Shown: positions 41,142 to 55,554 of the stretch, piece by piece
Layout: each line of letters opens with the position of its first letter
How positions within the stretch are numbered: the first letter of the stretch is position 1
Origin: Sulfobacillus acidophilus DSM 10332
Lineage (GTDB): Bacteria > Bacillota > Sulfobacillia > Sulfobacillales > Sulfobacillaceae
Direction: 5' to 3'
Assembly (NCBI GenBank): GCA_000237975.1
Contig: CP003179.1
Span: 2,634,270 to 2,698,269 of the forward strand
Length of the DNA: 64,000 bases
Notes under the pieces: model-generated
The model's input: only the letters and a program-made list of their open reading frames with translations
Database searches by the model: none
What the model was told of the DNA's origin: nothing
Position numbers and translations under genes: made by a program

Positions 41142-41273
41142 TTAGCCGTGAAAAAGCCCGCCGAGAATAGCCCCCACCAGTCCCATCAGGACCACCGCCA
41201 GCCATCCCCCGCCGGCACCGCCGGTCGCCAGGGCCGCCAATCCGGCCCCGCCGAGTACTCGCCTAATCCGCAT
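41142..41273 (-). CDS. Small glycine-rich membrane peptide (43 aa)
   Basis: The frame starts MRIRRVLGGAGLAALATGG and ends VGAILGGLFHG, one hydrophobic helix with glycine-zipper spacing and a positive N-terminus. ATG 41273 shares its A with the TGA stop of the preceding DNA-binding protein gene, a translation-coupling arrangement. Codon use matches the neighbours. No family recognised; a chance frame is possible at this length. Confidence 0.6.
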   Translation of the reverse strand: MRIRRVLGGAGLAALATGGAGGGWLAVVLMGLVGAILGGLFHG

Positions 41274-41896
41274 CAGGACGCTCCATCCAAGAGATCCCAC
41301 CCGTCGGCACAGGGAATAAATTGATAGCCGACCGAACGGACCGTCTGAATATGCCCTTCACCCAACACTTGGCGGAGATGATGAATGCCTGTCCGCAGAT
41401 GGCTGTCGCTCCAGGGCTGCCATCCCCAGCCGGATGCCGCTTCGTTGATAGCCTCGGCCGTCATTAACGGTTTACCCGCCATCACCAGTACCGCCAACAG
41501 CTGAAACACCCGCGTGGGTAAGCGTATTTCCTGTCCGTGATGCCATACCCGTTGCTCGGCCAAGGAGAGTTCCGTGCACGGGTTGCCGGCGGTAAAGGGA
41601 ATCATGTGGTCCAATTGGGCGGGGGTCACCCAGACGGCCAACGGACTGAGATAGTCGGTCACCATCATTGTGGGCACCTCCTCGCTCACGGCGGTATAAA
41701 TCACGACCGATAGCCAGCGGGGGTCCTCCAATACCGCCGGGTCGATGACCAAATAGTCCACGGTGTGCTGACTCAAGCCCTCTAACACTTGATTCACGGT
41801 ATGGAGCGTTAGAACCTCACACCCGGCCAATTGACCGGATATCCAAGGGCGAAATCCTTCCGGCGCAAAGATGCCTACACGGACGCGAGACGCCAT
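41273..41896 (-). CDS. OmpR/PhoB-type winged-helix protein with atypical receiver-like half (207 aa)
   Basis: The C-terminal ~95 residues form a trans-reg-C domain: EIRLPTRVFQLLAVLVMAG, SDSHLRTGIHHLRQVLG and IQTVRSVGYQFIP, the standard wing. The N-terminal half VRVGIFAPEGF...VDYLVIDPAVLE looks like a receiver, but the acidic pair and the conserved Lys are not visible, so phosphorylation is doubtful. ATG 41896 is spaced seven bases from GGAGGCG. It follows uppP in one direction, and phased TTAAC repeats lie ahead of uppP. Confidence 0.82.
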   Translation of the reverse strand: MASRVRVGIFAPEGFRPWISGQLAGCEVLTLHTVNQVLEGLSQHTVDYLVIDPAVLEDPRWLSVVIYTAVSEEVPTMMVTDYLSPLAVWVTPAQLDHMIPFTAGNPCTELSLAEQRVWHHGQEIRLPTRVFQLLAVLVMAGKPLMTAEAINEAASGWGWQPWSDSHLRTGIHHLRQVLGEGHIQTVRSVGYQFIPCADGWDLLDGAS

Positions 41897-41921
41897 GCCC
41901 ATCGCCTCCTCCCTCGAATGC

Positions 41922-42722
41922 CTACCATCCCCATGTCAATGCCGCCAAACTGACCGCTCCCAGCATGAGGGACGCCCACCCCAACCGGCGAAGACCATGT
42001 TGGCGAAAATAGCCTAAAAGATAGCGGGCCGCCCACGCGGCCACCACGAAAGCCAAAAAGCCGCCGCCGAGAGCTCGACTGACCATTCCCGGACTCCCAT
42101 GAGCCAACTTGGGCAATTCCACCAAGGCCGCCCCAAAAATTAAGGGAAACGCCACCAAAAAGCTGAAATGGGCGGCACTTTCGTAATCGAGCCCCTGACG
42201 CGCACTCCCCCAAAGGGCGAGACCGGAGCGGGAGAATCCCGGAATCAGCGCCAATATCTGATAAAGGCCAATACGTAAGGCCGCGAGCCATCCGAGATCA
42301 TCCCACCAACGCAAAGACGGCCGTGCGGCCAACGGTGCCCGCACCAACAACACGCCATTGACCATTAACATGACCGCCGCCAAGCGGGGACTGGAAAAAA
42401 ACCCGGCCACCCAGTGTTTGGCCAATAGTCCGGCCACTCCCGCCGGCAAGGCGGCCGTCAGGATCAAAAGCAATTGCCGCCGCCGATGGCGGTCACGCAC
42501 GAGGCCACGTAAAATTTGCCACCAAACGTGCCCAAACACGACGAAAAGTCCGAGCGCGGTTCCCAAATGGAGAGCGACCACGAACGGCAAATATACCCGA
42601 CCGACCGGTACGGGCCATCCCAACACATGGGGGACAATGATGAGAAGTCCTAAGCTCGAAAACGGAAAAAGTTCCGCAAACCCTTGCAGCGCCCCTAAAC
42701 TGAGGGCCGATAGCCAACTCAT
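41922..42722 (-). CDS. uppP: UppP/BacA-family undecaprenyl-diphosphatase homologue (266 aa)
   Basis: Polytopic membrane protein with seven or eight hydrophobic segments and the family motifs ALQGFAELFPFSSLG and PGFSRSGLALWGS. In E. coli BacA the corresponding residues are E17, E21, H30, S173, R174 and T178. Here Q, E, Leu, Ser, Arg and Ala occupy them, so His30 and Thr178 are lost. It may be a paralogue with altered function. AAGGAGGCC precedes the ATG. Confidence 0.85.
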   Translation of the reverse strand: MSWLSALSLGALQGFAELFPFSSLGLLIIVPHVLGWPVPVGRVYLPFVVALHLGTALGLFVVFGHVWWQILRGLVRDRHRRRQLLLILTAALPAGVAGLLAKHWVAGFFSSPRLAAVMLMVNGVLLVRAPLAARPSLRWWDDLGWLAALRIGLYQILALIPGFSRSGLALWGSARQGLDYESAAHFSFLVAFPLIFGAALVELPKLAHGSPGMVSRALGGGFLAFVVAAWAARYLLGYFRQHGLRRLGWASLMLGAVSLAALTWGW

Positions 42723-42768
42723 TGAGGCCTCCTTGATATCGTTATGCCGCCATTATGGCAACCTCCGA

Positions 42769-42807
42769 TTAACCCATGATTGGCGTTCGGTTAACGTTTG
42801 ATTAACA
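42769..42807. promoter_or_regulatory. Pho-box-like direct repeats, 11-bp period
   Basis: TTAACC (42769), TTGGCG (42780), TTAACG (42791) and TTAACA (42802) stand at exact 11-bp steps, resembling the B. subtilis PhoP site (TTAACA-type hexamers with five-base gaps). They lie 47-85 bases upstream of uppP and about 105-140 bases before the cytochrome gene. A minus-strand CATAAT (42757-42752) could be the uppP -10. Confidence 0.5.
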
Positions 42808-42867
42808 TTTAGTGACGCGTCCCGGCCCGTCGGTTGTCGATTGTCCGCCGTTGGATTAAAATGGCTC

Positions 42868-42913: not shown

Positions 42914-43303
42914 ATGAAACGATCGGCAGTCTGGCTGGTTCCCTGGTTATTGGTCGGCCTGATCGTCGGTTGCGGCCCGACCGAAACCGCCAATCCGCCC
43001 AGTAGCACCCCATCTTCCAATAAACCGGTCGTCGTCAACATTGCGGCCGGACGGGCGTTATTTCAACATGTCTGCGCCTACTGCCACGGCAGCCAAGGTC
43101 AGGGGGGTGTACGCATGGGCGCACCGGCCCTCTGGGGGCCGTCAGGGGTCATCAAAGGTAGCAGTTATGACAATCAAGCCGCTCTTGCCGGTTTCATTCA
43201 ACAATATATGCCGCTGGAAGCGGTCAACGGGGTCAATCCGGGCAGCTTGACCACCAGCCAAGCCAATAACGTGGCCGCCTACATCCTCCAGCAAAATAAA
43301 TAA
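42914..43303 (+). CDS. Lipoprotein cytochrome c, single haem (129 aa)
   Basis: Signal peptide with lipobox LIVGC (Cys20), then a Ser/Pro linker. The haem motif is CAYCH (Cys54, Cys57, His58), and Met99 in QQYMPLE is the likely sixth ligand. It is anchored outside the membrane and shuttles electrons, like cytochrome c-551/550 of Bacillus. The start follows AAAGGGTGG. A divergent uppP unit shares its upstream region. Confidence 0.93.
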   Translation: MKRSAVWLVPWLLVGLIVGCGPTETANPPSSTPSSNKPVVVNIAAGRALFQHVCAYCHGSQGQGGVRMGAPALWGPSGVIKGSSYDNQAALAGFIQQYMPLEAVNGVNPGSLTTSQANNVAAYILQQNK

Positions 43304-53103: not shown

Positions 53104-54501
53104 TTAGGCTGTCGGCTCGAGAGGCCCCTGGATCGCATCCGGTCCGATTTCTCCGGACGTGATTTCCAACGGCTGATTTTTGGTCTCCGGAACGCCGACT
53201 AAGGTCACGACCGCCGCCAGTAATGCCACCGAAGCCAAAAAGGTAATGGCAAAGGATTCGCCATAGCGTTGGAACAATGCCGGGAAGACAAAAGCGGTCA
53301 AGGCGGCGCCCAGACGACCCGCAGCCACAGTCCACGACTGAACCCACGCCCGAATCTTGGTGGGCGCCAATTCCACCCCGAGTACCCCGGAGGCGGACAC
53401 CGAACCGGGACCGGCTTGTTGAATAAGGTTTTCTAACCCATAGACGAATAGTCCGGCCAACGGCAGAGCGGTCAGTTGGGCACGGTACATACTAAAGGCC
53501 AGCAGCAGGACCGCCATGCCGAGAAACCCCAGGGTTTGCAAGGGTTTACGCCCCCAACGGTCAATCAGCAGCAACGCGATGAGGCCGCCCGGTACGACGA
53601 ATCCAAATTCCATCACGAGCTGAAACGTGCCGGCGGTGAGGCCGATGCCTTTGGCAATTAGCGAAGGGCCAAACAAAATACCCGAGTAGGCGACGATGTC
53701 GAACAAAAACCACAAGAGGGCCGCCACGAAAAACCGGCCTTTCAACTGCGAAAGATATTCGAACGGAGAACGCGGATCGGCGACGTCCGTCGGTTCCGGT
53801 GCGACGGGCGCTCCCGCCACCTCCGTGATGACCTGATGAAGCTTGTCTTTGTCCCCCCGGATACGAGCCAAAAACCGGGCGGTTTCCGGCATTTGACGGC
53901 GGAGATAGATCACGGCCGCCGCCGGGACCGCCCCAAACCCTAACACGATCCGCCAAATGAGGTCCGACGGCACGTGCCCGGCGGCCAACAGCAAATAGAG
54001 GACCGCGGCAAATGTCGCCCCCAGTCCCCAGGTCAGCCCAAAGCCCACTGCCATGCTCTTACCCCGATCCGATACGTTTGCATGCTCTCCCATGATTAAA
54101 GGCGACAGGACATAATCGGCACCCACCCCAATTCCTAAAACAAATCGAACCGCAATCAACGCCGGGATATTCGGTACGAAGGCTTGCAGGAGACCGGCCA
54201 GCGCCATAATCAGCACGTCGAGCCCATAAAACGCCTTTCGTCCCCGGTTGGCCAACCCGCCAAAAATCAGGGCCCCGAGCGCGGCGCCCACCAAAGCCGA
54301 ACCCGCCAGCAACGAACTTTCGAGACCGGTCAGGCTTTTGACGCCGAAAGAGGCTAAGGCCAGCGGTAACACGATGCCTAAAGACGATAAGTCATATCCG
54401 TCCGTAAATACGCCCATGCCTGTCGTCAGGACCGACTTCAAATGAAACCGCTTAAATCGTGCATGATCTAAAGGACTGAAGATACTCAACGGAGAATTCA
54501 T
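53104..54501 (-). CDS. MFS transporter, sugar/phosphate-porter type (465 aa)
   Basis: Twelve predicted helices, with FTDGYDLSSLGIVLPLAL near residue 30, a form seen in the Pho84/sugar-porter branch, and GGLANRGRKAFYGLD and LLIDRWGRKPLQTLG in the two MFS A-loops. A long central loop (residues about 205-250) is hydrophilic. The start overlaps the phosphatase stop by four bases. The substrate may be phosphate or an organic anion (inference). Confidence 0.87.
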   Translation of the reverse strand: MNSPLSIFSPLDHARFKRFHLKSVLTTGMGVFTDGYDLSSLGIVLPLALASFGVKSLTGLESSLLAGSALVGAALGALIFGGLANRGRKAFYGLDVLIMALAGLLQAFVPNIPALIAVRFVLGIGVGADYVLSPLIMGEHANVSDRGKSMAVGFGLTWGLGATFAAVLYLLLAAGHVPSDLIWRIVLGFGAVPAAAVIYLRRQMPETARFLARIRGDKDKLHQVITEVAGAPVAPEPTDVADPRSPFEYLSQLKGRFFVAALLWFLFDIVAYSGILFGPSLIAKGIGLTAGTFQLVMEFGFVVPGGLIALLLIDRWGRKPLQTLGFLGMAVLLLAFSMYRAQLTALPLAGLFVYGLENLIQQAGPGSVSASGVLGVELAPTKIRAWVQSWTVAAGRLGAALTAFVFPALFQRYGESFAITFLASVALLAAVVTLVGVPETKNQPLEITSGEIGPDAIQGPLEPTA

Positions 54502-55400
54502 CGGGTACTCCTTTCATTGACGGCGGTTTTCTCGTCATCCGCCGATGCCCAAGCCCAGCGCCCCTGCCAGTCGGCCGGCGGGCCCCAGTGATACGCATGC
54601 GAATCCGACAGCTGTGCCCCGAACCGTTCCCAGAAGGTTTGAGGGCCCGCCCCCACTTGGCTTTGGTAGGTAATGTCGGACTCCCCCAGGTGAAAGAGCC
54701 ACCATTGACTGGGGCCCGGCCCCAGGCCGCCCGCCGTCATTTGCGTAATCCCGTCGGCCAGCCGCCGCACGGATGCGGCATGCACATGGCCGGCCAGATA
54801 TAACACGCGTGACCCGATTGGCGCCAGGCTAGCCCGTAACGCTGGCAAACTGTGGGCAATATAGTCACCGGCGCCGAATACGGCCAGCGGTCCGGTGGCC
54901 CGCACCGTTTCCAACGGATAGTGGGCCAAGATCACGACGGGGGTATCCTCTTCAGAAATGGCGGCTTGGAGACGCGGAATGCTGCCGTCCGGATCTCCGT
55001 CACGAAGTGCGACGGCCATAATCCGGATCGGTCCCAGGCGCCGGACGGACACCGGCTCCGATAGACCAAACGCTTGGGCAAACGGGGTCGCGGCCCACGG
55101 CTCGGAGTGGTACCGTTCGGTATCCGGATAGGTGGCTCCCCGCAAACGATTGGCCCCCAAGTCATGGTTGCCCGGCACGACCATATAGGGGACGCCCAAA
55201 TCCTCCAACCACTGCCGAACTCCGATAAATTGCGCGGGATCGGCGCTTCCATAGGTCGTAAGATCCCCGGTTACCACGACCAAATCCGGCAATGCCTGCC
55301 GCACTTGGCGGGCGGTCAGGCGTAACGCATCTTGTCCACCGGAAAAATAGCGTTCCGGGTTTTCCCAGTGTAAATCGGATAGATGGGCAATACGCCACAT
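54498..55400 (-). CDS. Calcineurin-like metallophosphatase (300 aa)
   Basis: All metal motifs are present: SDLHW (Asp9, His11), VVTGDLT, VPGNHD, LAHYP and AGHVHA. No signal peptide, so cytoplasmic. The 3',5'-cyclic nucleotide phosphodiesterase CpdA-like group is a fair match. It overlaps the downstream MFS gene by four bases, suggesting a functional pair such as phosphate release and transport (inference). Confidence 0.88.
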   Translation of the reverse strand: MWRIAHLSDLHWENPERYFSGGQDALRLTARQVRQALPDLVVVTGDLTTYGSADPAQFIGVRQWLEDLGVPYMVVPGNHDLGANRLRGATYPDTERYHSEPWAATPFAQAFGLSEPVSVRRLGPIRIMAVALRDGDPDGSIPRLQAAISEEDTPVVILAHYPLETVRATGPLAVFGAGDYIAHSLPALRASLAPIGSRVLYLAGHVHAASVRRLADGITQMTAGGLGPGPSQWWLFHLGESDITYQSQVGAGPQTFWERFGAQLSDSHAYHWGPPADWQGRWAWASADDEKTAVNERSTR

Positions 55401-55554
55401 ATAACCCCCTCCGATTTCTACGGTAAAAGACGCGGATGAATTTTCCGGGATCCGGGAATTAAAAACCGGTTAAGGTTCAATGACACAACCCATTGGAAGA
55501 CATCCCGGCAAAAGGGCGGGCAGACGGAGTCAAAGAACCTTACGGCCCTATCTC

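Follow-up and report, generated by a model that had tools for sequence, protein, structure and literature searches.

In Bacillus subtilis, PhoP acts on repeats of TTAACA. Pho boxes elsewhere are known as 11-nt direct repeats with units such as CTGTCAT in Escherichia coli and GTTCACC in Streptomyces coelicolor (PMC4415409). For Sulfobacillus, S. acidophilus included, the available text of one report describes a phoB/phoR/pst/phoU cluster (PMC6803676). Within the response regulators, ChxR, HP1043 and NblR are recognized as atypical members (PMC3960148). Here we analysed a stretch of 64 kb (the window, whose own numbering is used below unless chromosome positions are specified) from S. acidophilus DSM 10332, the genome of which totals 3,557,831 bp with a chromosome of 3,472,898 bp (PMC3558970). 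The window carries a short repeat between a uppP-like gene of the BacA family (41922-42722, minus strand) and a divergent cytochrome c gene (42914-43303, plus strand; Pfam Cytochrom_C). Our analysis indicates that this repeat is very probably a PhoP-type Pho box, from which a phosphate-starvation promoter, reading leftward into uppP and the regulator gene behind it, would be activated.

On the plus strand, positions 42769-42812 read TTAACCCATGA TTGGCGTTCGG TTAACGTTTGA TTAACATTTAG, with TTAAC at 42769, 42791 and 42802 and TTGGC at 42780. All four positions and the step of exactly 11 bp given by the initial annotation were confirmed. Pho boxes are characterized by at least two 11-nt direct repeats arranged head to tail, as present here. 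TTAACN6TTAAC occurs once in the 64-kb window against an expectation of 0.05, and a search of the 3.56-Mb genome for the four-unit pattern with up to three mismatches gave five matches in four places, compared with one for the reversed control; the window site, with two mismatches, is joint best in the genome. These counts place the repeat well beyond chance. The same motif is found only a few times in the genome, mostly at phosphate genes, and precedes genes of phosphate uptake. In the genome stretches examined, boxes are present at least at four PHS-type phosphate:H+ symporter genes (chromosome 141046, 307226, 3353102 and 3387316), a PHO4/PiT transporter gene (1710147), pstB-pstS (1053270) and an operon encoding SBP, permease, ATPase and glycerophosphodiesterase (ABC/GDPD; 40510). 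Exact TTAAYMNAANNTTAAYMNAA is confined to four genomic places, one being the window site on the minus strand. Because nearly all of the few genomic sites lie at phosphate genes, we consider the Pho reading of the motif to be right, and the earlier assignment of the repeat as a Pho-type operator of the OmpR/PhoB class is supported at the level of sequence. Candidates at 467961 and 3376914 (PWM no higher than 13.2) and at 804911 (inside an ORF) look like noise and were set aside. At chromosome 3365529 (L101 / L140), in the vicinity of arsA, another box separates arsB from a pyridine nucleotide-disulphide oxidoreductase gene, a possible link of phosphate starvation to arsenic handling.

A blind scan of 34 genomes of the family for three exact TTAAC units produced 14 matches in 12 places, and its reversed control gave 0. 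PHS or PiT genes adjoin ten of these 12 places, which identifies the motif as the Pho box of the Sulfobacillus family; one of the other two is without a clear target and one faces a transposase-like gene. The latter (L125, genome G016) is a strong box, and in a related genome (L126) a PHS transporter gene occupies that place, so the transposase-like gene is possibly an insertion. Boxes at PHS, pst, GDPD, surE, wHTH and uppP genes are mostly oriented toward the gene. PiT boxes point away from their gene and lie directly against its start codon in 7/7 of the exact-match set (loci L116, L122, L123 and L127-L130). From these orientations we infer that a box pointing toward its gene would activate and that a box pointing away, as at PiT, would repress. 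The window also holds a weaker array resembling a Pho box (55430-55484, minus strand; PWM 14.5, below the cut-off of 18) upstream of a gene for a calcineurin-like metallophosphoesterase (54498-55400, minus strand; Pfam Metallophos), and a similar metallophosphoesterase gene in a relative (L077) has a box in front.

The TTAA core is palindromic, and the strand of the box was therefore judged from its flanks. For the training of an 11-mer PWM, five boxes came from the same genome and ten from wHTH and surE genes in relatives; the window site was excluded. This matrix gave 28.5 bits on the minus strand and 14.65 on the plus strand, with shuffled windows reaching at most 21.5; the values for a matrix built from the genome's own boxes were 37.2, 11.84 and at most 12.5, respectively. 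The initial annotation had read the repeat on the plus strand, an orientation these scores contradict: the DNA at 42769-42812 (TTAAC three times plus TTGGC) is the weaker-scoring reading, and the minus-strand box at 42762-42805 is the top PWM site of the entire window and matches the other boxes of the genome much more closely. Judged from the flanks, the box is on the minus strand and faces uppP. Read from 42805 down to 42762, its four 11-bp units are TTAATCAAACG (42805-42795), TTAACCGAACG (42794-42784), the poor unit CCAATCATGGG (42783-42773) and TTAATCGGAGG (42772-42762), and GTCACTAAATG just upstream (42806-42816, minus strand; PWM unit score 6.1) may be a weak fifth.

Sequence directly 3' of the minus-strand box reads TTGC-CATAAT-G, placing a -10 hexamer, CATAAT (42752-42757, minus strand), 4 nt past the box and 10 nt past the last TTAAT core. 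The same slot is filled by a -10-like hexamer behind other oriented boxes: similarity to TATAAT peaks at offset +4, with a mean of 3.22 of 6 matches versus 0.6 to 2.5 elsewhere, and the second-highest peak is the +11 repeat of this offset, from boxes with an extra unit. The box thus stands at the fixed distance from a -10 element seen at activated promoters. The 11-mer TTGCCATAATG is identical behind the uppP box and the box of the ABC/GDPD operon, and a ribosome binding site, AAGGAGG (42728-42734, minus strand), precedes the uppP ATG. Conservation of the repeat in relatives, on which the initial annotation had staked its proposal, was borne out with a matrix that had no uppP boxes in training and a cut-off of 18. 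Scores at or above the cut-off were found in 12/28 uppP upstream regions (window included), exclusively on the coding strand. The box is accordingly kept in the same orientation by 11/27 uppP relatives, from genera g5, g7, g9, g11 and g13 of two families, a fraction to be read in light of the phylogenetic non-independence of these genomes; 16/27, including all of genus g8, score below 18. Only the 11-bp step works at uppP, other spacings yielding none, and 0.07% of shuffles reach 18.

Given that intergenic DNA is often rich in TTAA, the repeat could be a chance product of A+T-rich sequence, but the shuffles, reversed-pattern controls and spacing controls all disfavor this explanation and leave it a negligible probability. 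The box might also, or mainly, drive the divergent cytochrome c gene, whose regulation the initial annotation had raised as a possibility, and it does lie in the shared intergenic region with three TTAAC on the plus strand. Orientation and distance nonetheless misfit: the plus-strand PWM score falls within the shuffle range, the plus strand has no -10 in the slot required for one (TGACGCGTCCC follows), the cytochrome start codon lies at a distance of 107 bp, and uppP has different neighbors in those relatives that were examined. A separate sigma-70-like match before the cytochrome gene (42834-42862) was no better than chance in a regional promoter scan. The cytochrome gene is not convincingly under the box, and we regard its control from this site as unlikely. 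Repression of uppP by PhoP is similarly improbable; the PiT boxes, which abut the start codon and point away, suggest that repression occurs within the regulon, but the window box is co-directional with uppP and has its -10 at the activating distance, an arrangement shared with the PHS and GDPD genes.

A further proposal concerned the protein that binds. The initial annotation had assigned this role to the product of the gene 19 bp behind uppP, which has its own RBS and ends at 41902 rather than at 41896 (41273-41902, minus strand), and had envisaged autoregulation. Consistent with this idea, the presumed operon itself encodes an OmpR/PhoB-type winged helix (C-terminal, as is typical of the class; Pfam Trans_reg_C, 39 bits), and relatives of this wHTH gene often carry a Pho box of their own, in the neighborhood of surE, uppP or phosphate transporter genes. 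Some of these boxes were in the PWM training, and a plain count of TTAAC at the 11-bp step gave the same picture. However, boxes are present in genomes G006, G012 and G015, where no full-length homologue was found, and the other boxed phosphate genes match a PhoP regulon. In PhoB (1GXP), Arg, Thr and His contact bases. The recognition helix of the wHTH protein reads SDSHLRTGIHHLRQVL, compared with SRTVDVHVRHLREKL in PhoP, and therefore lacks these residues. Autoregulation by the wHTH protein is thus unlikely, and the protein is probably a regulon member rather than the binder. The likely binder is PhoP, encoded elsewhere at chromosome 737841-738518 and followed by PhoR, PstS, PstB and PhoU. 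RegX3 is its closest solved relative, and the response regulator found beside uppP in G006 and G028 is 55% identical to it (best match L010). No clear box was seen upstream of phoP or of the pst genes next to it.

The wHTH protein departs from a typical response regulator. Pfam detected no receiver domain in it, and across its family the acidic pair is absent and the phospho-acceptor position varies among D, E and N; the receiver set of acidic pair, Asp and Lys is therefore lacking. A structural model of moderate confidence (pLDDT 71, pTM 0.46) suggests a shortened, degenerate receiver-like domain, with full-length response regulators aligning over residues 6-198. When 154 genomes of the class were scanned, the full-length family proved restricted to the Sulfobacillus family, and a contig scan with the wHTH protein alone as query found no relative. 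Cys109 (window numbering) is near-invariant and His121, His174, His184 and Cys198 are invariant in the family, a possible metal or redox site. The first gene of the unit encodes a protein assigned by sequence to the BacA family as UppP-like (Pfam BacA, 180.5 bits; cut-off 33.4). Aligned to 5oon, it has Leu at the position of E. coli His30, and the conserved SSxGH motif reads SSLGL. Leu or Ile occupies this position in all close UppP relatives in which the motif was read, and the genome's second UppP (L113) retains His30. Among the papers inspected in a literature search, with subscription journals mostly outside its scope, none linked UppP to a Pho regulon.

We propose that phosphate scarcity would lead to phosphorylation of PhoP, which would bind head to tail across the four 11-bp units, substituting for a -35 element, and recruit RNA polymerase to CATAAT, 10 nt past the last core. 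Transcription of uppP would be expected to start near 42745. The repeat, its strand, the -10 geometry, the motif shared with phosphate genes and its conservation at uppP are computed results; that PhoP binds here, that it activates, and that uppP is transcribed together with the regulator gene are inferred. Of the targets named earlier, uppP is probable and so is the wHTH gene that follows it, and both are likely members of the Sulfobacillus phosphate-starvation regulon; inclusion of the later small genes is not supported. More tentatively, and with appreciable doubt, the phosphate response of the Sulfobacillus family may include a lineage-specific second tier in which a His30-less UppP of changed function and a phosphorylation-independent pseudo-receiver regulator are both induced by PhoP. 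The UppP might, for example, handle undecaprenyl phosphate under phosphate limitation, and the regulator could possibly sense metal or redox state through its invariant Cys and His.

These results constitute a first operator map of a Sulfobacillus Pho regulon, in a genus used in biomining, and place recycling of a cell-wall lipid carrier and an uncharacterized atypical regulator under predicted phosphate control. They also supply a directly testable orientation rule, in which boxes facing a gene with a -10 would activate and boxes facing away at PiT would repress. The operator class is a known one. Like the Pho boxes of PhoB and PhoP, those of the Sulfobacillus family are tandem head-to-tail 11-nt units before phosphate-uptake genes, and their TTAAC core is near the Bacillus consensus; they differ in their predicted consensus, TTAAC[CA]-N2-A-rich, with the last core 10 nt from the -10. 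Relative to the available text of the Sulfobacillus report (PMC6803676), which gives the gene cluster only, the present analysis adds operators and the uppP, wHTH and PHS targets. The two cargo genes of the window box are unusual. As modeled, the pseudo-receiver regulator resembles ChxR, HP1043 and NblR in its OmpR/PhoB fold and a receiver without phosphorylation residues, but forms a separate group restricted to the Sulfobacillus family, with a shortened receiver and invariant Cys and His. The UppP shares the BacA family with the E. coli protein (5oon, 6cb2) and keeps Glu21, Ser27 and the PGxSRS motif, whereas His30 is replaced by Leu or Ile wherever the motif was read, a substitution that sets it apart from both E. 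coli UppP and the His-bearing second UppP of its own genome.
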